From Burkholderiales bacterium (lineage in GTDB: Bacteria; Pseudomonadota; Gammaproteobacteria; Burkholderiales; SG8-41), in the NCBI GenBank assembly GCA_022841375.1, contig JALHRQ010000001.1, positions 62,001 to 126,000 of the forward strand: a stretch of 64,000 bases of DNA. The letters run 5' to 3'. Both the position numbers and the translations under genes were made by a program. Positions 41,151 to 50,625 of the stretch are shown here, piece by piece. The notes beneath the pieces are model-generated. The model ran no database searches. It saw only the letters and a program-made list of their open reading frames with translations, and had not been told where the DNA came from. Each line of letters opens with the position of its first letter. Position 1 is the stretch's first letter.

Positions 41151-42134
41151 TCAGAACTTCGCGCCGCTGCGTTTAACGACGTCGGCCCATTTTTTCATGT
41201 CTTCGAGCATGAACTGACGGAAGACCTCGGGCGAATTGGTCACCGGCTCGGATCCGTTGGCATCGGCAATCTTGGCAAATTCAGCCGATTTTACGTAGGC
41301 CGCAATGTCGGTATGGATCTTGGTCAGGATCGGCTTCGGCAGTTTCGCCGGAGCAGCCACGCCATACCAGCCAACGACTTCGAAGCCCGGCAGCACTTCA
41401 GTCATCGCGGGAATATCCGGCGCCGCGGCCAGACGTTTGGCATTGCTCACGGCGATGCCGCGCAGCTTGCCGGATCGCACATGCGTAAACGCGCCGGCCA
41501 GCCCCATGAAGTTGTAATGGTATTCGCCGCTGATCAGGCCAACGGCAGCCGGACCCGTGCCCTTGTAAGGAATGTGCTGGCTTTTGATGCCGGCCATCAG
41601 ATTGTAGAGTTCGCCGGCAAGGTGACCACCGCTGCCGATGCCGGCGGAGCCGAAGTTGATCGGATCCTTGGTGGTCTTGGTCCACTGCACAAAATCCTTG
41701 GCGGTTTTTGCCGGATGCGAGGGATTGACCACCAGCAGCAGACCCGCCGCCGTCATCTGGGTGATCGGCGTGAAGTCATTGACCGGGTGATACGGCAGTT
41801 TGGGAATGATTGCTGCATTCACGGTGTGCTGGTGATACGGAATGAACAACGTGTAACCGTCCGGCAGCGAATCCTTGGTGATCTCGGCACCGTTGACGCC
41901 CGAAGCGCTGCCGCGATTGTCGACAATCACCTGCTGATTCCAGGCCTTGTTCAGATTCGACGCCAGCAGCCGGGCGAGGAAATCGGTGGTGCCGCCGGGT
42001 GCAGCGGGCGTGATGATCCTGACCGGACGGGTCGGGTAATTGTCTGCTGCCGTTGCCACAGCCGCCGGCATCGCCAGCCCCAGCGCTACCAACATCAGCG
42101 GCGCGCTCTTGGTAAATAGGCAAATACGCTGCAT
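41151..42134 (-). CDS. Bug-family (TctC-like) periplasmic substrate-binding protein
   Basis: 327 residues. AGGAGG lies 5 bases before the ATG. Signal peptide ending AVATAAD, then NYPTRPVRIITPAAPGGTTDFLARLLA, the Bug ligand loop, with VIVDNRGSASGVNGAEITKDSLPDGY split around ~55-80 and the second loop HIPYKGTGPAAVGLISGE (~175). The fold is a Venus flytrap binding carboxylates through backbone contacts. No TctAB genes adjoin it, as for most Bug proteins. Next to an enolase-superfamily enzyme, it may capture that enzyme's substrate. Ligand unknown. Confidence 0.93.
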   Translation of the reverse strand: MQRICLFTKSAPLMLVALGLAMPAAVATAADNYPTRPVRIITPAAPGGTTDFLARLLASNLNKAWNQQVIVDNRGSASGVNGAEITKDSLPDGYTLFIPYHQHTVNAAIIPKLPYHPVNDFTPITQMTAAGLLLVVNPSHPAKTAKDFVQWTKTTKDPINFGSAGIGSGGHLAGELYNLMAGIKSQHIPYKGTGPAAVGLISGEYHYNFMGLAGAFTHVRSGKLRGIAVSNAKRLAAAPDIPAMTEVLPGFEVVGWYGVAAPAKLPKPILTKIHTDIAAYVKSAEFAKIADANGSEPVTNSPEVFRQFMLEDMKKWADVVKRSGAKF

Positions 42135-42482: not shown

Positions 42483-43448
42483 ATGAACAAAAAAGTATTC
42501 ACAACAGCCGCTCTGTGCCTGCTTGGCGCCACCGCCGGTTTTGCACAGGCTCAGACTTACCCGGCCAAAACCGTGCGCATCATCGTGCCCTTCGCGCCCG
42601 GTGGCGGCTCCGACTTCATTGCCCGTGCCGTTGCGCCGTCGCTGTCGAAAGCCATGGGTCAGCAGTTCGTCGTCGACAACCGTCCGGGCGCCGGCAGCAC
42701 GCTGGGCAGTGAAATCGCACTGAAATCGCCGGCCGACGGTTACACCCTGCTGCTGATTTCCGGCAGCTACACGACTTCACCCAGTCTCTACAAAAACCTC
42801 AAATATGATCCCCTGAACGACATGGCCTCGGTGGTCCAGACCGAAAACGGCCCCTATGTCGTCACCGTGCACCCTTCGCTGCCGGCCAAGGACGTCAAAC
42901 AACTGGTGGCGATCGCCAAATCCAAACCGGGCCAGCTCAACTACGCCAGCACCGGCAACGGCGGCATCACCCACCTGTCCGCCGAACTGTTCGCGATGCG
43001 CACCGGCATCAAGATCACCCACATCCCGTACAAGGGTACCGGCCCCGGCGTCATCGATACCATTGCCGGCCACACCCAGATGATGATTGCGGCGGTATCC
43101 GCGGTGGTCGGACACATGCAGAGCGGCCGCCTGAAAGGCCTCGCCGTATCCTCGCCCAAGCGTCTGCCGGCGCTGCCCGCCATTCCAACAGTGATGGAAT
43201 CCGGCTACAACTACCAGGTCAACAACTGGCACGGCATCATCGCCCCCAAGGGCACGCCCAAAGCCGTCATTGACAAGCTGAACAGCGAAGTCAACAAAGC
43301 CATCAAAGACCCGGATTTCGCCAAACGCATCGCGCTGGACGGCCTCGAGCCGGCGGGTGGCACACCCGAGGAGTTCTACACCCTGCTCAAACGCGAAGTT
43401 GTCGAGTGGGGCGAGGTCGTCAAGGCCGCCAACGTCAAAGCAGACTGA
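42483..43448 (+). CDS. Bug-family (TctC-like) periplasmic substrate-binding protein
   Basis: 321 residues. Signal peptide ends at GFAQAQ; the mature chain opens TYPAKTVRIIVPFAPGGGSDFIARAVA, with VVDNRPGAGSTLGSEIALKSPADGY and THIPYKGTGPGVIDTIAG (~175), all canonical Bug motifs. Sequence differs clearly from the divergent neighbour at 41151, so they are separate paralogues rather than a fresh duplication. No permease genes adjoin. Ends at a strong terminator (43489). Ligand not predictable; carboxylates, phenylpropanoids and amino acids are known for the family. Confidence 0.93.
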   Translation: MNKKVFTTAALCLLGATAGFAQAQTYPAKTVRIIVPFAPGGGSDFIARAVAPSLSKAMGQQFVVDNRPGAGSTLGSEIALKSPADGYTLLLISGSYTTSPSLYKNLKYDPLNDMASVVQTENGPYVVTVHPSLPAKDVKQLVAIAKSKPGQLNYASTGNGGITHLSAELFAMRTGIKITHIPYKGTGPGVIDTIAGHTQMMIAAVSAVVGHMQSGRLKGLAVSSPKRLPALPAIPTVMESGYNYQVNNWHGIIAPKGTPKAVIDKLNSEVNKAIKDPDFAKRIALDGLEPAGGTPEEFYTLLKREVVEWGEVVKAANVKAD

Positions 43449-43565: not shown

Positions 43566-45473
43566 ATGATCCAGTTTCGTAATCTCACCCTGGTCCGCGG
43601 CGCGCGCGAACTGATCGCCGACGCCAGCGTACAAATCCATCCCGGCTGGCGTGTCGGCCTGACCGGCGCCAACGGCAGCGGCAAATCCAGTGTGTTCGCG
43701 CTTCTGCGCGGTGAACTGCAGGCCGAACACGGCGACTGCGACATACCCGCGACATGGCGCATCGCCACGGTCGCCCAGGAAACGCCGGCGCTCGACACCC
43801 CCGCCATCGATCATGTGCTCGACGGCGACACCGAATTGCGCGCGCTCGAACGGGAAATGGCCAGCGCCGAAACCGCCCACGCCGGCGAAAAAATCGCCGA
43901 ACTGCATGCCCGGCTGGACGATATCGGCGGTTACAGCGCAAAGGCCCGCGCCGCGTCACTGCTCGCCGGACTCGGCTTTGCCGAAGCGGAAATCGAGCGC
44001 CCCGTACGGGAGTTCTCCGGCGGTTGGCGCATGCGGCTCAATCTGGCGCAGGCGCTGATTGCCCGCGCCGACCTGCTGCTGCTCGATGAACCCACCAACC
44101 ATCTCGATCTCGACGCGGTAGTCTGGCTGGAACAATGGCTGGCCGGATTCAAGGGCACGCTGGTCGTGGTTTCGCATGACCGCGACTTTCTCGACGGCTG
44201 CGTCACGCACATCGCCAATATCCAGTCCGCAAAGCTTACGCTGTACACCGGCAACTATTCAGCATTCGAAGAAACACGGGCCGCACAACTCGCCGCGCAA
44301 CAGGCCACTTACGAGAAACAGACCCGCGTCATTGCGCACATGGAATCGTTTATTGCGCGCTTCCGCGCCAAGGCGACCAAAGCAAAACAGGCGCAAAGCC
44401 GGCTCAAGGCATTGGGGCGCATGGAGCGCATTGCGGCCGCGCATGTCGACACGCCCTTTGAGTTCACCTTTCCACAGCCCGAGCGATCACCTAATACATT
44501 GATTTATTTGAATAAAATTTCAGTGTCCTATGGCGACCGCGCGGTGCTGCGCGATATCGAAATGACCCTGGCCCCGGGTGCACGCATCGGTCTGCTCGGC
44601 CCCAACGGTGCCGGCAAATCAACGCTGGTCAAACTGCTCGCCGGCGAACTGCAGCCATCATCCGGCCAACGCAGCGAAGGCCGCGGCCTTGTCATCGGCT
44701 ACTTCGCGCAGCACCAACTGGAACAATTACGCCCCGATGAATCACCGCTGCAGCATCTGTTGCGGCTGGAGCCACAGACCCGCGAGCAGGAACTGCGCGA
44801 CTACCTCGGTGGTTTCGATTTCCGTGGTGCCATGGCTGACCGTCCCGTAGCGCCGTTCTCGGGCGGTGAGAAATCAAGACTGGCGCTGGCCCTGCTGGTG
44901 CGCCACAAACCCAATCTGCTGCTGCTCGACGAACCGACCAACCACCTTGACCTTGAAATGCGCCAGGCACTGACCGCAGCGCTCGCCGAATATGAGGGCA
45001 GCCTGGTGCTGGTGTCGCACGACCGCGCGCTGCTGCGTACGGTATGCGACGATTTTCTGCTGGTGACCGACGGCGGCATCCAGGAATTTGACGGTGCGAT
45101 CGAAGATTACATCGCGTGGCTCGCCGCCCGCCGTACGGCAAACGCCGGTGCAGGCAATGCTGCAGCAACACAGGACAAGGCGGCACGGCGCGAAGCACGC
45201 GAATCCGCCGCGGCAGATCGCCAGACAAGGCTGGCGGCACGGCGCCCCCTGCTCAAGGAGACGGCAAAACTGGAACAGGAGATTGCGCATTGGCAACTTG
45301 AGAAACAGCGGATCGACGGACAACTGGCCGACCCGGCGTTTTATGCCGATCCGGATCCGGAAAAGCTGCGCCAACTGAATATGCGACAGCAGGAACTCGC
45401 CGCCGTCATTGATGCCGCGGAACACCGCTGGCTGGAAGCGCAGGCCGAACTAGAAATAATCGGCGATGCATAA
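43566..45473 (+). CDS. yheS: ABC-F family ATPase YheS
   Basis: 635 residues. Two ABC domains: Walker A GANGSGKSS (~38) and GPNGAGKSTL (~345), signatures REFSGGWRMR and PFSGGEKSR, Walker B LLLLDEPTNHLDLD and LLLLDEPTNHLDLE. The inter-domain linker (~235-300) is charged and helical (FIARFRAKATKAKQAQSRLKAL), the P-site tRNA interaction motif of ABC-F proteins; a coiled-coil tail ends the chain. MIQFRNLTLVRG and WRIATVAQETPALD favour YheS over Uup. ABC-F proteins act on the ribosome and are not transporters. No membrane domain. Confidence 0.93.
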   Translation: MIQFRNLTLVRGARELIADASVQIHPGWRVGLTGANGSGKSSVFALLRGELQAEHGDCDIPATWRIATVAQETPALDTPAIDHVLDGDTELRALEREMASAETAHAGEKIAELHARLDDIGGYSAKARAASLLAGLGFAEAEIERPVREFSGGWRMRLNLAQALIARADLLLLDEPTNHLDLDAVVWLEQWLAGFKGTLVVVSHDRDFLDGCVTHIANIQSAKLTLYTGNYSAFEETRAAQLAAQQATYEKQTRVIAHMESFIARFRAKATKAKQAQSRLKALGRMERIAAAHVDTPFEFTFPQPERSPNTLIYLNKISVSYGDRAVLRDIEMTLAPGARIGLLGPNGAGKSTLVKLLAGELQPSSGQRSEGRGLVIGYFAQHQLEQLRPDESPLQHLLRLEPQTREQELRDYLGGFDFRGAMADRPVAPFSGGEKSRLALALLVRHKPNLLLLDEPTNHLDLEMRQALTAALAEYEGSLVLVSHDRALLRTVCDDFLLVTDGGIQEFDGAIEDYIAWLAARRTANAGAGNAAATQDKAARREARESAAADRQTRLAARRPLLKETAKLEQEIAHWQLEKQRIDGQLADPAFYADPDPEKLRQLNMRQQELAAVIDAAEHRWLEAQAELEIIGDA

Positions 45474-45502: not shown

Positions 45503-46246
45503 CTACCGGGTAATAACAACCTTCTGGTAAAGGCCGCCAAAAAAGGTGCGTTTGCCGATGTGTGCAGGCTTTACCGATGACGGCAACCATTCGGAAATTT
45601 CCCTGCGCCACAGATCCATCGCAAACGGCTCCAGCCAGGTGAGGATGGGCATCATCAGATAGCGGAAAGGATTCATCCAGTGCGGTCGATGGTAATCAAC
45701 AAAAACGACCTTGCCGCCGGGTTTGACCACACGCAGGGCCTCGGCCACCGTGCGCGCCCGCACCGCCTCGGGCATTTCATGCAGCAGGAAAAACAAAACG
45801 ACGTAGTCGTAACTGGCATCGGTAAACGCCAGATCACCGGAATCCTGATGATGCACGGCGACCCGCGGATGGCCGTTGATCTTGCGCTTCAGATTGTCGA
45901 TCTGCACCGGCGCCACATCCGCCACATCCAGCGTACCCTGCGCCCCCAACTGGCGGGCGAGCATTTCGGTGAAGTCGCCGTAGACACAAGCCACCTGCAG
46001 CACTTTGCCGGTGATCGGCACATGCAATTCACGGAAGGCCGCATCACGCAGCCGGTTGTAATTGCCCCACAGGATCAGATTGACCAGCCATTGCCGCTCG
46101 AACACGCGCACCGCATTGGGGTGTACGTAAGCCCACCAGTAGGTCTGTTCGAGATAACGCGGCATGGGTACCGGCGCCTTCAGCGCCGGCGCAGACACAG
46201 CGACACCCTCCCCGTCGATACGGCGGGCGGCAACTGCTTTTGTCAT
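45503..46246 (-). CDS. rquA: Rhodoquinone biosynthesis methyltransferase-like protein RquA
   Basis: 247 residues. Class I SAM fold, but the usual DxGxGxG motif is replaced by VACVYGDFTEML (~83), the hallmark of RquA; the N-terminal RYLEQTYWWAYVHPNAVRVFERQ (split here at ~30-52) and HEMPEAVRARTVAEALRVVKPGG (~150) also match. RquA is required to convert ubiquinone to rhodoquinone, a low-potential quinone. The gene begins one base after the frdD stop (TGA-G-ATG) and is the last of the frdABCD-rquA unit, exactly where a rhodoquinol-using fumarate reductase would want it. Strong call from sequence and context. Confidence 0.93.
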   Translation of the reverse strand: MTKAVAARRIDGEGVAVSAPALKAPVPMPRYLEQTYWWAYVHPNAVRVFERQWLVNLILWGNYNRLRDAAFRELHVPITGKVLQVACVYGDFTEMLARQLGAQGTLDVADVAPVQIDNLKRKINGHPRVAVHHQDSGDLAFTDASYDYVVLFFLLHEMPEAVRARTVAEALRVVKPGGKVVFVDYHRPHWMNPFRYLMMPILTWLEPFAMDLWRREISEWLPSSVKPAHIGKRTFFGGLYQKVVITR

Positions 46247-46247
46247 C

Positions 46248-46589
46248 TCAGATCCTCAACAGGAAATAAGCAGCGGCCAGCGTACCCGCGGCAGCGGCCA
46301 GATAAACCGCGACAGCAACGGCACCGTCCGCACGCACACCAAAGTCATGGAGCGTGACACGCAAGCGGTGCGCGGCATGCCACATCATCAGCAAGAGTAT
46401 ACCGAACAGCACCAGCTTGCCCATCCAGTGGCCGGCAAAAGCCCGAAGATTGTCATAGGCCAGCAGCTCGGGCATCACGCCAAAAACCGGCAACAGCGTT
46501 AACAGAACCAGCGCTGGCGTCAGAAACGCCGTCACCGTACCGCCGGCGGCAAACAATCCCCAGACTATCGGTTTGTTGGATTTGGCCAT
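46248..46589 (-). CDS. frdD: Fumarate reductase membrane anchor subunit D
   Basis: 113 residues from the ATG at 46589; the longer frame upstream is inside frdC. Three membrane helices (~12-34, ~55-75, ~90-112) with KPIVWGLFAAGGTVTAFLTP at the start and the conserved HxxHxLR-type MMWHAAHRLRVTLHDFG. Length is close to E. coli FrdD (119). With FrdC it forms the heme-less quinol-binding anchor. It starts one base after the frdC stop and ends one base before rquA. Secure from order and sequence. Confidence 0.93.
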   Translation of the reverse strand: MAKSNKPIVWGLFAAGGTVTAFLTPALVLLTLLPVFGVMPELLAYDNLRAFAGHWMGKLVLFGILLLMMWHAAHRLRVTLHDFGVRADGAVAVAVYLAAAAGTLAAAYFLLRI

Positions 46590-46590
46590 A

Positions 46591-46989
46591 TCAGAATGCT
46601 CCCGCCAGATACAGCACTGCGACAGTCGCAACCAGCCACGCCGCATAATGCGCGCCGATGATCACCGCCCCCGGCAGAAACTGCTCTCCGATCTGCACCG
46701 GCATCGCCTTGGGTGTGACATTGAACCAGGACGTCGAGTGATAGATGGCAAACGCGAGAATGACCAGCTGCAACACAATCCCGGCCGGTCCGGTCAGGTT
46801 GTGCAGGAAAGCCTCCCAGGCTTCGCGTCCTTCGGACAGTCGCTTCAGCGCTACCAGCAGGATCAGCGCATGCAGGCCGATGAACACACAGGTGACTTCA
46901 CGCGCCATATAACGCCGGTAACGCGGGTTGCCTAAAAACCAGCCGTAGCGGGACACCTCACGTACATAGGGTTTGCCGTTCGCGCTCAT
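46591..46989 (-). CDS. frdC: Fumarate reductase membrane anchor subunit C
   Basis: 132 residues from the ATG at 46989, overlapping the frdB stop as ATGA; E. coli FrdC has 131. KPYVREVSRYGWFLGNPRYRRYMAREVTCVF (split ~7-37) is the conserved N terminus, including the Arg and Glu residues lining the quinol site in E. coli. Three membrane helices follow; FAIYHSTSWFNVTPKAMPV is the second loop. Holds FrdAB to the inner membrane and binds quinol. Secure. Confidence 0.95.
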   Translation of the reverse strand: MSANGKPYVREVSRYGWFLGNPRYRRYMAREVTCVFIGLHALILLVALKRLSEGREAWEAFLHNLTGPAGIVLQLVILAFAIYHSTSWFNVTPKAMPVQIGEQFLPGAVIIGAHYAAWLVATVAVLYLAGAF

Positions 46990-47729
46990 TTTTTGCTCCA
47001 AGGCATCGCGTGTTCCTTGTACCAGTCGACCGTGCTCTTGATCTTGATCTGTTGCAGCGCCCCTGCCGGATCAACATGCTCGGGACAGACTTCGGAACAG
47101 GCGCCGACGAACGAACACTCCCAGACGCCCTCGTTGGAAGCGATTTCCTGCTGCCGCTCTTCGCGCCCGCCGTCACGCGAATCTTCGTTGTAACGATGCG
47201 CCAGTGAAATCGCCGCCGGGCCGATGAACTTGGGCACCAGGCCGTATTCAGGACAAGCTGCGTAACAAAGCATGCAGTTGATGCACAGCGTGTACTGCTT
47301 GTAGCGCTTCAGTTCCGCGGGACTCTGCCGGAACTCTCCGGCCTCCACCGGCTGGTCCTCTTTCGGAATCAGGTACGGTTTGACGCGCTTCAGCTTGGTG
47401 ACAAAGTCATCTATTACTGTCACCAGGTCGCGCTGAATCGGGAAATGAGCCAGCGGCTCGACGCGGATCACGCCCTCGTATTCGCGCAAAAACGCCTTGC
47501 ATGCGAGTTTCGGTTCACCGTTGATCATCATGCCGCAGCTGCCGCAAACGGCCATGTGGCAGGACCAGCGGTAACTCAGCGTAGGATCGATGGATTCCTT
47601 GACGTGATTCAGCGCATCGAGCACCACCCACTCGTTCATGCAGGGCACGCTGTAGCGCTGGAACCGCGGCTCGGTATCGGTTTCCGGATTGAAGCGCAGC
47701 ACCTCCAACTCGACGATGCGTTCGCTCAT
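46986..47729 (-). CDS. frdB: Fumarate reductase iron-sulfur subunit
   Basis: 247 residues. N-terminal [2Fe-2S] domain with CHMAVCGSCGMMINGEPKLAC, then the [4Fe-4S] motif CINCMLCYAACP and the [3Fe-4S] motif CSFVGACSEVCPEHVDP. The sequence FIGPAAISLAHRYNEDSRD is nearly the E. coli FrdB sequence, favouring a FrdABCD-type enzyme over succinate dehydrogenase. It carries electrons from quinol in FrdCD to FAD in FrdA. ATG overlaps the frdA stop, and its own stop overlaps frdC, giving tight translational coupling. Secure. Confidence 0.97.
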   Translation of the reverse strand: MSERIVELEVLRFNPETDTEPRFQRYSVPCMNEWVVLDALNHVKESIDPTLSYRWSCHMAVCGSCGMMINGEPKLACKAFLREYEGVIRVEPLAHFPIQRDLVTVIDDFVTKLKRVKPYLIPKEDQPVEAGEFRQSPAELKRYKQYTLCINCMLCYAACPEYGLVPKFIGPAAISLAHRYNEDSRDGGREERQQEIASNEGVWECSFVGACSEVCPEHVDPAGALQQIKIKSTVDWYKEHAMPWSKK

Positions 47730-49501
47730 TTCTGTTCTCCCGCGCTTTTTTCCCCCGAATAGTCGCGCACGCCGGGCGGCGAACGGGTGATCACCACGTC
47801 GGAATAACCGATCTCCGGAGGACCGTCGCTGCGATAACGGGCCAGGGTGTGGCGCAGATACTTGTCGTCATCGCGAGCCGTAAAATCAAGCCGCTGGTGG
47901 GCGCCGCGCGATTCACGCCGCTCCAGCGCGCTGACCGTCACCGCTTCGGCGCAATCGAGCATCGCCCCCAGCTCCAGCGCCTGCAGCAGGTCGGTGTTGT
48001 AGACATTGGTCTTGTCATGCAATTCGATGCCGGCATAACGCTGGCGCAATGAGGCCAATGTGGCGCAGGCTTTTTCAAGACCTTCGCCGCTGCGATAGAT
48101 TCCGGCATTCTCCTCCATCGTTGCCATCATTTCCTTGCGCACGCCGGCAATGGTTTCTGTGCCGTCGGTGCGATTGAACAGTTCGCGCAGCCGCGCCTGG
48201 GCGGCATCTGCGCCGGCAGTGATTGCCACCTCGTTCGCCGTACCCGTGCCGCCATCCAGATGTTCCATCGCGCTCAGCGCGGCGCGCCGGCCGAACACCA
48301 GCAATTCGGTCAATGAATTGGAACCCAGCCGGTTGGCGCCGTTGATGCTGACACAGGCGCACTCGCCGGCCGCATACAACCCTTTTACCGAAGTCGCTGC
48401 GTTGATGTCGGTATCGATGCCGCCCATCATGTAATGCACCACCGGTCGCACCGGCACCGGATCGGTCACCGGATCAACGCCGAGGTAACTGGTCGCCATG
48501 TCGCGCACCAGCGGCAGGCGCTCGTTTATTTTTTTCTCGCCGAGGTGGCGCAGGTCGAGCATCATGCAGTCGCCCCAGCGGGTCGGCACCATGTTGCCTT
48601 TTTTCTGTTCATGCCAGAACGCCTGGCTGACGCGGTCGCGCGGTCCGAGCTCCATGGTTTTCAGCACCGGCTGACCCACCGGCGTCTCCGGCCCCATGCC
48701 ATAGTCCTGCAGGAAACGGCGTCCGTTTTTATTGACCAGGATGCCGCCTTCGCCGCGGCAGGCCTCGGTCAGCAAGGTACCGGTGTTCGGCAATCCGGTC
48801 GGGTGGTACTGCACGAACTCCATGTCCTTCAGCGGCACGCCGGCGCGATAGGCCAGCGCCATGCCGTCGCCGGTCTTGATCGCACCGTTGGTGGTGAACG
48901 GGAACATGCGCCCGGCGCCGCCGCTGGCGATGATCACCGCATTGGCGCGGAAAAATTTCATCTGCCCGCTGCGCATCTCGATCGCGGTGAAACCGCGGCA
49001 GCGCCCGTCTTCGATCACCAGATCGGTGACGTAATACTCGTCAAAGCGTTCGATCGACGGATACTTCAGAGAAGTCTGGAACAGCGTGTGCAAAATATGA
49101 AAGCCGGACTTGTCGGCGGCAAACCATGTACGCTGTTTTTTCATGCCGCCGAACGGGCGCACCGCCACCGAACCGTTGGGCTCGCGACTCCACGGACAGC
49201 CCCAATGTTCGAGCTGCAGCAATTCCTTGGGCGCTTCGCGGATGAAATAGTCCACCGCATCCTGGTCCGACAACCAATCGCCGCCGCCGACCGTATCGTG
49301 GAAATGATGGTCCATACTGTCGTCGGATTTGATCACCCCCGCCGCACCACCCTCGGCCGCGCAGGTGTGGCTGCGCATCGGGTAGACCTTGGAGACAAGG
49401 GCGATTTTCAGCGAAGGGCGCGCTTCAGCGAGCGCAATGGCTGCCCGTATCCCCGCACCGCCAGCGCCCAGAACGGCAACATCTGTTTTTATTGTTTCCA
49501 C
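47726..49501 (-). CDS. frdA: Fumarate reductase flavoprotein subunit
   Basis: 591 residues from the GTG at 49501 (VETIKTDVAVLGAGG), preferred because GGAG lies 8 bases upstream and E. coli FrdA (602) begins at the same place; a 93-residue upstream extension is non-conserved. FAD motif GAGGAGIRAAIA, covalent-FAD His 45 in MRSHTCAAEGG, HPTGLPNTG, RGEGGILVN and HYMMGGIDTD active-site regions all present. Reduces fumarate to succinate on the cytoplasmic face, using quinol electrons. First gene of frdABCD-rquA; a possible FNR-type box lies ~90 bp upstream. Secure. Confidence 0.97.
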   Translation of the reverse strand: METIKTDVAVLGAGGAGIRAAIALAEARPSLKIALVSKVYPMRSHTCAAEGGAAGVIKSDDSMDHHFHDTVGGGDWLSDQDAVDYFIREAPKELLQLEHWGCPWSREPNGSVAVRPFGGMKKQRTWFAADKSGFHILHTLFQTSLKYPSIERFDEYYVTDLVIEDGRCRGFTAIEMRSGQMKFFRANAVIIASGGAGRMFPFTTNGAIKTGDGMALAYRAGVPLKDMEFVQYHPTGLPNTGTLLTEACRGEGGILVNKNGRRFLQDYGMGPETPVGQPVLKTMELGPRDRVSQAFWHEQKKGNMVPTRWGDCMMLDLRHLGEKKINERLPLVRDMATSYLGVDPVTDPVPVRPVVHYMMGGIDTDINAATSVKGLYAAGECACVSINGANRLGSNSLTELLVFGRRAALSAMEHLDGGTGTANEVAITAGADAAQARLRELFNRTDGTETIAGVRKEMMATMEENAGIYRSGEGLEKACATLASLRQRYAGIELHDKTNVYNTDLLQALELGAMLDCAEAVTVSALERRESRGAHQRLDFTARDDDKYLRHTLARYRSDGPPEIGYSDVVITRSPPGVRDYSGEKSAGEQK

Positions 49502-49588: not shown

Positions 49589-49602
49589 TTGACCTAGATT
49601 AA
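49589..49602 (-). promoter_or_regulatory. Candidate FNR/ANR box upstream of frdA
   Basis: TTGAC-CTAG-ATTAA, two 4-of-5 matches to TTGAT-N4-ATCAA, centred 94 bp upstream of the frdA GTG. Placing it at -41.5 puts a weak TAACCT -10 at about 49561-49566 (minus strand). Suggestive only. Confidence 0.35.
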
Positions 49603-49725
49603 GTCTTGGTGAAGCCTGTTCCACCCGCCTCAGCAACCGACCCGACCCCGTTATACTTGAGCGCTGCCCGGCCCTGCCGGATGGACGGCGCCAGACTACC
49701 ACCATTATCTGAAAGACCAATAACG

Positions 49726-50625
49726 ATGAGTTCCGCACCAATTCGACTGGGTTTGCTGGGTTTCGGCGAAGCCGCTGCACGCCTGGCCATGGATTTTTCG
49801 CAGGCCGGTTTTAACAACATCACCGCTTACAGCCGCAGCGGCGCCAAAGCCCAGCCGGGCGACCCGGTTTATCAACGCGCCGAAGCGGCGGGCGTCAAAC
49901 TCGCAAAAAGCGTCGGCACGCTGGCCAAAAAATCCGACATCATCATTGCACTCACCCCGGGCAAGGCCGCAGTCCCCGCGCTGAAAAAAATCCTTAAGTA
50001 TCTTCGCCCCGAGCATCTTTATATCGACGCCAGCAGCAACTCGGCGCACAACATGGAACAGGCGGCAGCGCTGATCGGCAACAGCGCACGGTTCGTCGAT
50101 GCCTCGGTGATGGGTCCGGTGGACATCATGGGATTGAAAGTGCCGTTCGTCGCCAGCGGTCCGCATGCGGAAGAGTTCCGCGACCGGATGACGCCGTGTG
50201 GCATGGTCATCACCGTCGTCGGCAGCAATCCGGGCGATGCCAGCGCGATGAAGCTGATCCGCAGCGTGCTGATGAAAGGGCTGGCGATGCTGTTGCTTGA
50301 AACCATGGAAGCCGCGCACCGCCGCAACATTCTCGATGCCGTGATCGAGGACTCGTCGGTCACTTTCAACGACATTCCGTTCCAGAAAATCATCAAACGC
50401 TACATCGGCGGTACCGCCGTACACTGCGAAAGGCGCATTCACGAGATGAAGGAATGCCTGGAATTGCTGCAGGACATGGGCTCAACCGACCGCGCCACCA
50501 AAAGCACCATTTCCATGCTGCGCGACATGGTCAAGATGGGCATGCCGCAGAAATTCACCGCTGAACCCGAATCCATCCATCCGGTCATCGACGCGCTGAT
50601 CGCTGCGCGCGACCAGGCGAAATAA
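49726..50625 (+). CDS. NAD(P)-dependent 6PGDH-like oxidoreductase with DUF1932 domain
   Basis: 299 residues from the ATG at 49726. Rossmann N terminus IRLGLLGFGEAAARLAMDFSQAG, then SKSVGTLAKKSDIIIALTPGKA as in beta-hydroxyacid dehydrogenases. The C-terminal helical half is DUF1932 (MKLIRSVLMKGLAMLLLETMEAA..., MLRDMVKMGMPQ). Members related to L-threonate dehydrogenase oxidise small hydroxy acids; the conserved catalytic Lys position is not clear here. Divergent from frdA, sharing 224 bp. Fold sure, substrate unknown. Confidence 0.85.
   Translation: MSSAPIRLGLLGFGEAAARLAMDFSQAGFNNITAYSRSGAKAQPGDPVYQRAEAAGVKLAKSVGTLAKKSDIIIALTPGKAAVPALKKILKYLRPEHLYIDASSNSAHNMEQAAALIGNSARFVDASVMGPVDIMGLKVPFVASGPHAEEFRDRMTPCGMVITVVGSNPGDASAMKLIRSVLMKGLAMLLLETMEAAHRRNILDAVIEDSSVTFNDIPFQKIIKRYIGGTAVHCERRIHEMKECLELLQDMGSTDRATKSTISMLRDMVKMGMPQKFTAEPESIHPVIDALIAARDQAK

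Follow-up and report, generated by a model that had tools for sequence, protein, structure and literature searches.

An frdABCD-rquA gene cluster in a Burkholderiales bacterium: a candidate operon for rhodoquinol-dependent fumarate respiration

Which quinol would serve a four-subunit fumarate reductase (FRD) whose genes are followed, one base further on, by the gene of a putative rhodoquinone synthase? The question is raised by a locus of a Burkholderiales bacterium (assembly GCA_022841375.1, contig JALHRQ010000001.1, positions 62,001 to 126,000), where the genes frdA, frdB, frdC, frdD and rquA follow one another on the minus strand of a window of 64,000 nucleotides, this being the whole stretch of DNA that was analysed. 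Our answer, to which we give a probability of roughly 0.8, is that frdABCD-rquA is an operon for anaerobic rhodoquinol:fumarate respiration, in which FRD is made together with the enzyme that converts the quinone. The linkage of rquA with complex II genes was already noted in 2018; what is new here is an FRD clade with leads at its quinone site, a double RquA, and a menaquinone mirror case.

Gene order, gene products and quinone genes of the genome

The cluster begins with frdA, which codes for the fumarate reductase flavoprotein subunit (47726..49501, minus strand, like the four genes that follow; 591 amino acids, GTG start at 49501 and TGA at 47726). The iron-sulfur subunit gene frdB (46986..47729; 247 amino acids) overlaps frdA by ATGA, and frdC, for a membrane anchor (46591..46989; 132 amino acids), overlaps frdB in the same way. 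After gaps of a single base come frdD, for the other membrane anchor (46248..46589; 113 amino acids), and rquA (45503..46246; 247 amino acids), the product of which, hereafter RquA1, is a rhodoquinone synthase by homology. Coordinates and family models agree with the preliminary description of this DNA, which had reported five genes overlapping or one base apart; its text placed rquA correctly, while the interval that it gave, 46248-49501, leaves out rquA itself.

Concerning the Frd subunits, FrdA scored 936 bits with NCBIfam TIGR01176 (cut-off 932.7) and also passed the cut-off of NF006686, FrdB scored 361.7 bits with NF009051 (cut-off 333), and FrdD scored 90.1 bits with NF003977 (cut-off 60) and 101.4 with Pfam PF02313 (cut-off 25). 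FrdC reached 124.1 bits with Pfam PF02300 (cut-off 24.2) and fell below both NCBIfam FrdC models (88.5 vs 143 and 81.6 vs 234). The nearest solved structure for all four subunits was E. coli FRD 1kf6 (FrdA vs 1kf6_A, E 1.4e-239). When aligned to it, the subunits of the window retain FrdB Lys228, FrdC Arg28 and Glu29, and FrdD Trp15 and Arg82 (the FrdD numbering being that of E. coli, Met included), a list (K228; R28, E29; W15, R82) which we take to be the quinone site of the E. coli enzyme. The same residues are retained across the 57 rquA-linked FRDs dealt with below, save for one E29R and two FrdB gaps.

RquA1 matched NCBIfam NF038261 with 323.8 bits (curated cut-off 175), the top score of any RquA in our samples of the order (399 genomes) and the phylum (398 genomes). 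The family traits considered were an altered S-adenosylmethionine (SAM) motif I, reading ACVYG or AHVYG, and two SAM-pocket aspartates, and RquA1 shows both. The sequence VACVYGDFT, correctly reported earlier in place of the SAM motif, occupies residues 85-93, where motif I lies. Asp110 and Asp135 are retained, as far apart as D118 and D143 of R. rubrum RquA; among 122 aligned RquA rows, Asp110 is present in all 122 and Asp135 in 117. In R. rubrum RquA, the joint loss of D118 and D143 abolished rhodoquinone synthesis, the double mutant being the only one tested, and the wild-type enzyme replaces a methoxy substituent of ubiquinone with an amino group from SAM, giving rhodoquinone (both as reported in PMC9814641). 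The closest solved relatives of RquA1 are methyltransferases (best E 2.8e-8). By homology, RquA1 would convert ubiquinone to rhodoquinone.

The genome (4.08 Mb in 66 contigs, 99.05% complete) was searched for menaquinone synthesis with a single marker per pathway, MenD and MqnC. None of 21 relatives, own genome included, had MenD above cut-off (there were weaker matches only), and the own genome gave no MenD match at E <= 1e-40, with seven control genomes, E. coli among them, above cut-off. MqnC matched in none of 22 genomes at E <= 1e-10, and two control genomes were above cut-off. The absence of menaquinone genes had been set beforehand as a test of the use of rhodoquinol, and neither MenD nor MqnC was found in the own genome. 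The genes ubiU, ubiV and ubiT are present and adjacent (UbiU 563.6, UbiV 421.8 and UbiT 128.9 bits, all above cut-off), an FNR-like TTGACCTACATCAA adjoining ubiU. A separate sdhCDAB was also found, with SdhA at 940.2 bits and SdhA, SdhC and SdhD above cut-off; its SdhB frame shares 32% identity with FrdB, and neighbouring reading frames resemble citrate synthase and SucA. So, it can be said that ubiquinone synthesis independent of O2 is possible in this organism, that its genome holds a complex II of the aerobic type, and that it gives no sign of menaquinone by these markers. Chobert et al. (PMC11707229) report RquA mostly in Betaproteobacteria, usually together with the O2-independent ubiquinone pathway (73/84) and rarely with menaquinone (5), and Stairs et al. 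(2018, PMC5953543) find rquA at most 15 genes away from those of respiratory complexes, including complex II, and put forward the idea of operons. The locus fits both the distribution of RquA in the former report and the neighbourhood of respiratory complexes in the latter.

In the mechanism that we propose, a shortage of O2 would lead to FrdABCD and RquA being made from one message, possibly via FNR. RquA would turn ubiquinone, whose anoxic supply could run via UbiU, UbiV and UbiT, into rhodoquinone, a methoxy group giving way to an amino group with SAM as its donor. NADH dehydrogenase, or another dehydrogenase, would reduce rhodoquinone to rhodoquinol, and FrdABCD would oxidise the latter at its membrane quinone site while converting fumarate into succinate; homology and gene linkage point to this step. 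The separate SdhCDAB would be left for the aerobic tricarboxylic acid cycle. That the enzyme runs on rhodoquinol had been proposed from the start, and the proposal is strengthened by the lack of a detectable menaquinone pathway, by ubiU, ubiV and ubiT, and by the correlated distances described below; that rhodoquinol is the real donor of FrdABCD we infer on good grounds.

Recurrence of the gene order and the linked FRD lineage

An alignment of 14 RquAs, run against a collection of 84,980 species, yielded at least 534 confirmed relatives, the best 80 of which were kept; the results of this and the next sentences refer to these 80. A locus was considered linked when a FrdD match ended at most 900 bases upstream of rquA on the same strand; three of the 80 loci were too short on the upstream side to be judged. 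Of the 77 informative loci, 49 have frdD as the immediate upstream neighbour of rquA (with FrdA too in 46 of the 49), a proportion that is no rate for RquA genes overall, since the loci were picked by likeness to RquA1. The titles of the linked loci include Competibacteraceae, Contendobacter, Rhodoferax and, in many cases, 'uncultured beta proteobacterium' (metagenome-assembled genomes); the 28 unlinked ones include 14 titled Rhodoferax and 4 other Comamonadaceae, and in one of them (L125) frd genes occur in the flank, on the opposite strand. From the frdD stop to the farthest possible rquA start there are -4 to 328 bases in 48 measurable junctions. The gap is of one base in four of these (L046-L049); in FrdB-C-D these four match same-genus genomes exactly or almost exactly. 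The titles of two records may be mentioned: L125 is titled Bordetella parapertussis, and L054 is titled Synechococcaceae cyanobacterium, a doubtful-looking label, given that both its frd and its rquA fall among Contendobacter rows.

Within the genus, FrdD was found in 6 of 13 genomes (own included), and rquA comes directly after frdD in all six (L039-L044); G213 (L010) is a seventh same-genus genome with this arrangement. In the order-wide sample, RquA was above cut-off in 36 of 399 genomes and FrdD was present in 13 of 399. Thirty RquA loci (L009-L038), corresponding to 30 of the 36 genomes, were read: frdD is directly upstream of rquA in three (L009, L010, L011), rquA directly precedes frdA in one (L016), an sdh-like A-B pair is upstream of rquA in two (L021, L022), and 24 show neither an frd nor an sdh-like arrangement within about 1.5 kb. 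The locus with the reverse order belongs to G273 (L016/L155, G273:C1), and its FRD falls outside the linked clade defined below.

The order frdABCD-rquA is not a chance arrangement, because it recurs in many relatives. Nor is it unique, as was considered at one point, since 49 of 77 informative loci have it (from the best 80 of at least 534). The preliminary description had called the coupling of rhodoquinone synthesis and use unusually direct. This needs qualifying, given how often the nearest RquA relatives show this order and that operons were suggested in 2018 (PMC5953543); the one-base gap is seen in 4 of 48 measurable junctions, all in rows matching this genus.

The relationship among FRDs was studied in a tree of FrdB, FrdC and FrdD with 74 rows (quick method, midpoint root, branch support by the Shimodaira-Hasegawa-like approximate likelihood ratio test, SH-aLRT, only), from which same-genome duplicates had been removed. 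It omits L053 and L062 (partial) and L138/G617 (truncated FrdB) and keeps 57 of 59 linked loci. Distinct loci among these number 54, and certain genomes entered by two routes (e.g. L042 and L046). All 57 linked FRDs fall on one side of a branch with SH-aLRT 100, together with four unlinked ones: that of G113, where two reading frames each hold part of the RquA match, and those of G280, G331 and G257, without RquA. The 13 remaining FRDs lie outside this clade, all three from genomes with MenD among them. In addition, RquA and FrdBCD distances are correlated (Mantel r 0.83 for 52 linked loci, a value reached in 0 of 999 permutations; the test used 52 of the 54, the RquAs of L144 and L145 being filed under other locus ids). 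The two trees disagree on L054, L069 and L080, which stand with Competibacteraceae by FRD and close to Rhodoferax by RquA.

A comparison of the linked rows with 14 other rows, E. coli included, gave 28 of 448 comparable columns in which one residue is shared by 95% or more of the linked rows and by no more than 10% of the others. The enzyme has the four subunits of the E. coli menaquinol:fumarate reductase FrdABCD (1kf6, 1l0v) and keeps the Lys, Arg, Glu, Trp and Arg of its quinone site, and it differs from it in these 28 columns of the linked rows and in having no menaquinone genes found in its own genome. The diagnostic columns include FrdB T205S, FrdC A32C and FrdD G19A. Their enrichment at the quinone site is weak, 3/11 vs 25/437 (Fisher p 0.026). 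A universal rhodoquinol signature is not supported, as another RquA-bearing FRD lineage keeps T205, A/S32 and G19; that lineage has FrdB F206A in 4/4 rows. Among the clade members devoid of RquA, FrdB residue 205 is Thr in G331 and G257 and Ser in G280. The three changes are to be taken as leads rather than as a signature, and FrdB 205, FrdC 32 and FrdD 19 are candidate residues for how a complex II enzyme might be fitted to rhodoquinol over menaquinol. Such a fit also bears on parasitic worms, for which rhodoquinone is a necessity (PMC6656428).

Other FRDs, the second RquA and the weighing of alternatives

A search for FrdD that was blind to RquA found it in 13 of 399 genomes of the order and 10 of 369 of the class, which gave 22 genomes. 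RquA is at or above cut-off in nine of them (split in two in G113) and marginally under it in one (G617, 173.4 bits), and MenD is present in three. FrdD without a match to RquA, MenD or MqnC was found in G331, G152, G257, G280, G308, G337, G555, G666 and G736. In the last of these (L190, C13:160000-174000) frdABCD stands beside a divergent UbiE-like methyltransferase gene and near an FNR gene; the UbiE-like protein scored 132.8 bits, below its cut-off of 158.35, and a pair of U32 proteins is encoded about 5 kb away. With these neighbours, a novel quinone is conceivable in G736.

A mirror case was found in G769 (L163, G769:C1), where menB, menC and menE come next after frdABCD in the same orientation and where, on the other side and past an opposite-strand gene, there are menH, menD and an isochorismate synthase gene. 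MenB, MenC, MenH, MenD and isochorismate synthase were above cut-off, and MenE was at 328.6 vs 330.15. Judged by its gene content, frdABCD-menBCE is the menaquinone counterpart of frdABCD-rquA: FRD genes are likewise followed by genes for the enzyme's own quinone, here menaquinone and many genes instead of one. This suggests a general rule, FRD beside its own quinone genes, which can be checked by a genome survey. More tentatively, and with somewhat less than an even chance in our judgement, frdABCD-rquA may be a coherent cassette passed on by inheritance, the mark of a distinct FRD lineage tuned to rhodoquinol in which FrdB T205S, FrdC A32C and FrdD G19A are nearly fixed, and FRDs in general may be paired time and again with a gene for their own quinol (rquA downstream in this clade; rquA upstream in G273; menBCE in G769; a divergent UbiE-like gene in G736). 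If this pairing were true, the quinone used could be read from the operon. The frdABCD-rquA locus offers a clean genomic case for matching quinone type to fumarate reductase, in a group to which, by record titles, Competibacteraceae and Rhodoferax relatives belong.

A second RquA (RquA2) is encoded elsewhere in the own genome (G000:C10, L150:8617-9522), not near frd, and scored 284 bits with NF038261 (cut-off 175); G213 also has it (C28, L152:8707-9432). RquA1 and RquA2 are 55% identical and lie on separate branches of the RquA tree, on which grounds a recent duplication of RquA1 into RquA2 was rejected. Downstream of the RquA2 gene come a START-type gene (Polyketide_cyc, Pfam) and the gene of a putative lipoprotein of 490 amino acids without a Pfam match. 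Upstream there is a SoeABC-like molybdoenzyme operon; a link between it and RquA2 was dropped, as a small cold-shock-like gene intervenes in G213. At the position of R. rubrum D143, RquA2 of the own genome has Asn, while that of G213 and RquA1 have Asp. RquA2 was found in both of the frd-bearing genus genomes searched genome-wide (G000 and G213, of seven frd-bearing). In the phylum sample, 61 of 398 genomes have RquA above cut-off and the own genome is alone in having two, G971 having one above and one below; in the order sample, two above cut-off occur in 2 of 36 RquA genomes, again G000 and G213. Since RquA2 is encoded outside the operon, loss of the operon rquA alone may not abolish rhodoquinone. 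As a side observation, the split RquA match of G113 (L159, G113:C25) is near a frame that looks, by eye, like the gene of the putative lipoprotein found beside RquA2, and may be a broken gene or an assembly error.

A more distant RquA-like protein of 263 amino acids, with an N-terminus that is hydrophobic by eye, is encoded in G000:C3 (L151:8452-9240) and G338:C107 (L153:8269-9057). It scored 103.9-114.5 bits with NF038261, below cut-off and well above most other matches, which are at 50-60, and it was seen in two of the 399 genomes of the order sample, each of which also has RquA and FRD. It is possibly a new quinone-modifying enzyme.

Compared with other RquA systems proposed to use rhodoquinol (R. 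rubrum, protists; as described in PMC5953543 and PMC9814641), the present one has the same RquA family, the same conserved residues and the same proposed use, and differs in its E. coli-type four-subunit FRD partner, the one-base spacing, the defined FRD clade and the two unlike RquAs. In PMC5953543, none of 182 organisms is given both Group A and Group B RquA. Ca. Thiosymbion oneisti (PMC8269255) has frdABCD and rquA and no menaquinone, and rhodoquinone was likewise suggested as a replacement; the passages of that paper on these genes do not state whether they are adjacent, as they are here. No description of two full RquAs in one bacterium, or of frdABCD-rquA as a named operon, was found in searches of one open-access library.

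Several observations weigh against the operon as a rhodoquinol:fumarate unit. Nine of the 22 FrdD genomes have neither RquA nor MenD, so an E. coli-type FRD alone implies no known low-potential quinone, and three of the nine (G331, G257 and G280) are inside the rquA-linked FRD clade. rquA and frd are both present and far apart in G338 and G075, and the FRD lineage of G273, G338, G075 and L125 is without the quinone-site changes. The frd-linked rows group together in the RquA tree without forming one clade, 10 changes being counted, at least 5 of them forced. A U32 (UbiU/V-type) protein was not seen in five (G213, G042, G075, G113 and G273) of the 10 genomes with FrdD and RquA (G617, with RquA marginally under cut-off at 173.4, being counted among the 10), so that an O2-independent ubiquinone supply is not general. 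RquA2 could provide rhodoquinone without the operon rquA. Finally, the FNR-like sites discussed below are weak and differently placed outside the genus.

A rival explanation is that FRD works with ubiquinone, either oxidising succinate or reducing fumarate weakly, and that rquA serves other anaerobic chains, the shared operon reflecting only a shared need under anoxia. In its favour, FRD occurs without a gene for a known low-potential quinone in 9 of 22 genomes, also within the clade itself (G331, G257, G280). We consider this unlikely, given that a separate, normal sdhCDAB is present, that rquA and frd distances correlate and the linkage recurs in Burkholderiales and Competibacteraceae, and that fumarate reduction is thermodynamically better served by a low-potential quinol (rhodoquinone -63 mV, as given in PMC5953543).

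Two other explanations concern RquA itself. RquA2 might be the main rhodoquinone synthase and the operon copy secondary or a chance capture: it is a full family member (284 bits vs 175) and is present in both frd-bearing genus genomes searched genome-wide (G000, G213). Even so, the RquA2 of G000 has Asn at the D143 position, where RquA1 and the RquA2 of G213 keep Asp, and rquA1 stays by frd in all seven frd-bearing genus genomes whose loci were read, which makes this explanation quite improbable. Very improbable is that RquA1 gives a related aminoquinone other than rhodoquinone. Its product is not fixed by homology, and the genome also holds the distant RquA-like protein (103.9-114.5 bits), but no RquA of the order or phylum sample scores higher than RquA1, the conserved residues that were checked are in place, and RquA-dependent rhodoquinone synthesis is reported as experimentally confirmed in 15 species (Chobert et al., PMC11707229). 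It seems reasonable, then, to prefer rhodoquinol:fumarate respiration as the function of frdABCD-rquA.

Control region and neighbouring genes

An FNR/CRP-type palindrome, TTAATCTAGGTCAA (49589..49602, minus strand), begins 101 bases upstream of the frdA start and is a candidate anaerobic control site. Against TTGATNNNNATCAA, which we take to be the FNR consensus and which was used for scoring, it has two mismatches, at -101, a consensus match and not a proof. In three same-genus rows FNR-like sites are at -98, -99 and -100. Sites with at most two mismatches were found, at varying positions, in 13 of 39 relatives vs 3.3 expected, the expectation coming from shuffles that preserve base composition only and the 39 rows being mutually related. 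The evidence for FNR control of frdABCD-rquA is only suggestive.

A consensus scan of the minus strand from frdA to the rquA start found no terminator-like site, the first one lying inside rquA; like the overlaps and one-base gaps of the genes, this speaks for the operon. Four terminator-like and one promoter-like sites were detected in the region, numbers not above those of shuffled sequences; the sole promoter-like site falls within frdD.

Upstream of frdA there is a divergent reading frame (49606-50625, plus strand). On the other side, an ABC-F type ATPase gene (43566-45473, plus strand; NF000355, 487.4 bits vs a cut-off of 380) is convergent with rquA, and because of this rquA is the final gene of the cluster. 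Further on, the frames 41151-42134 (minus strand) and 42483-43448 (plus strand) look, by eye, like genes of tripartite-tricarboxylate solute-binding (Bug) proteins.

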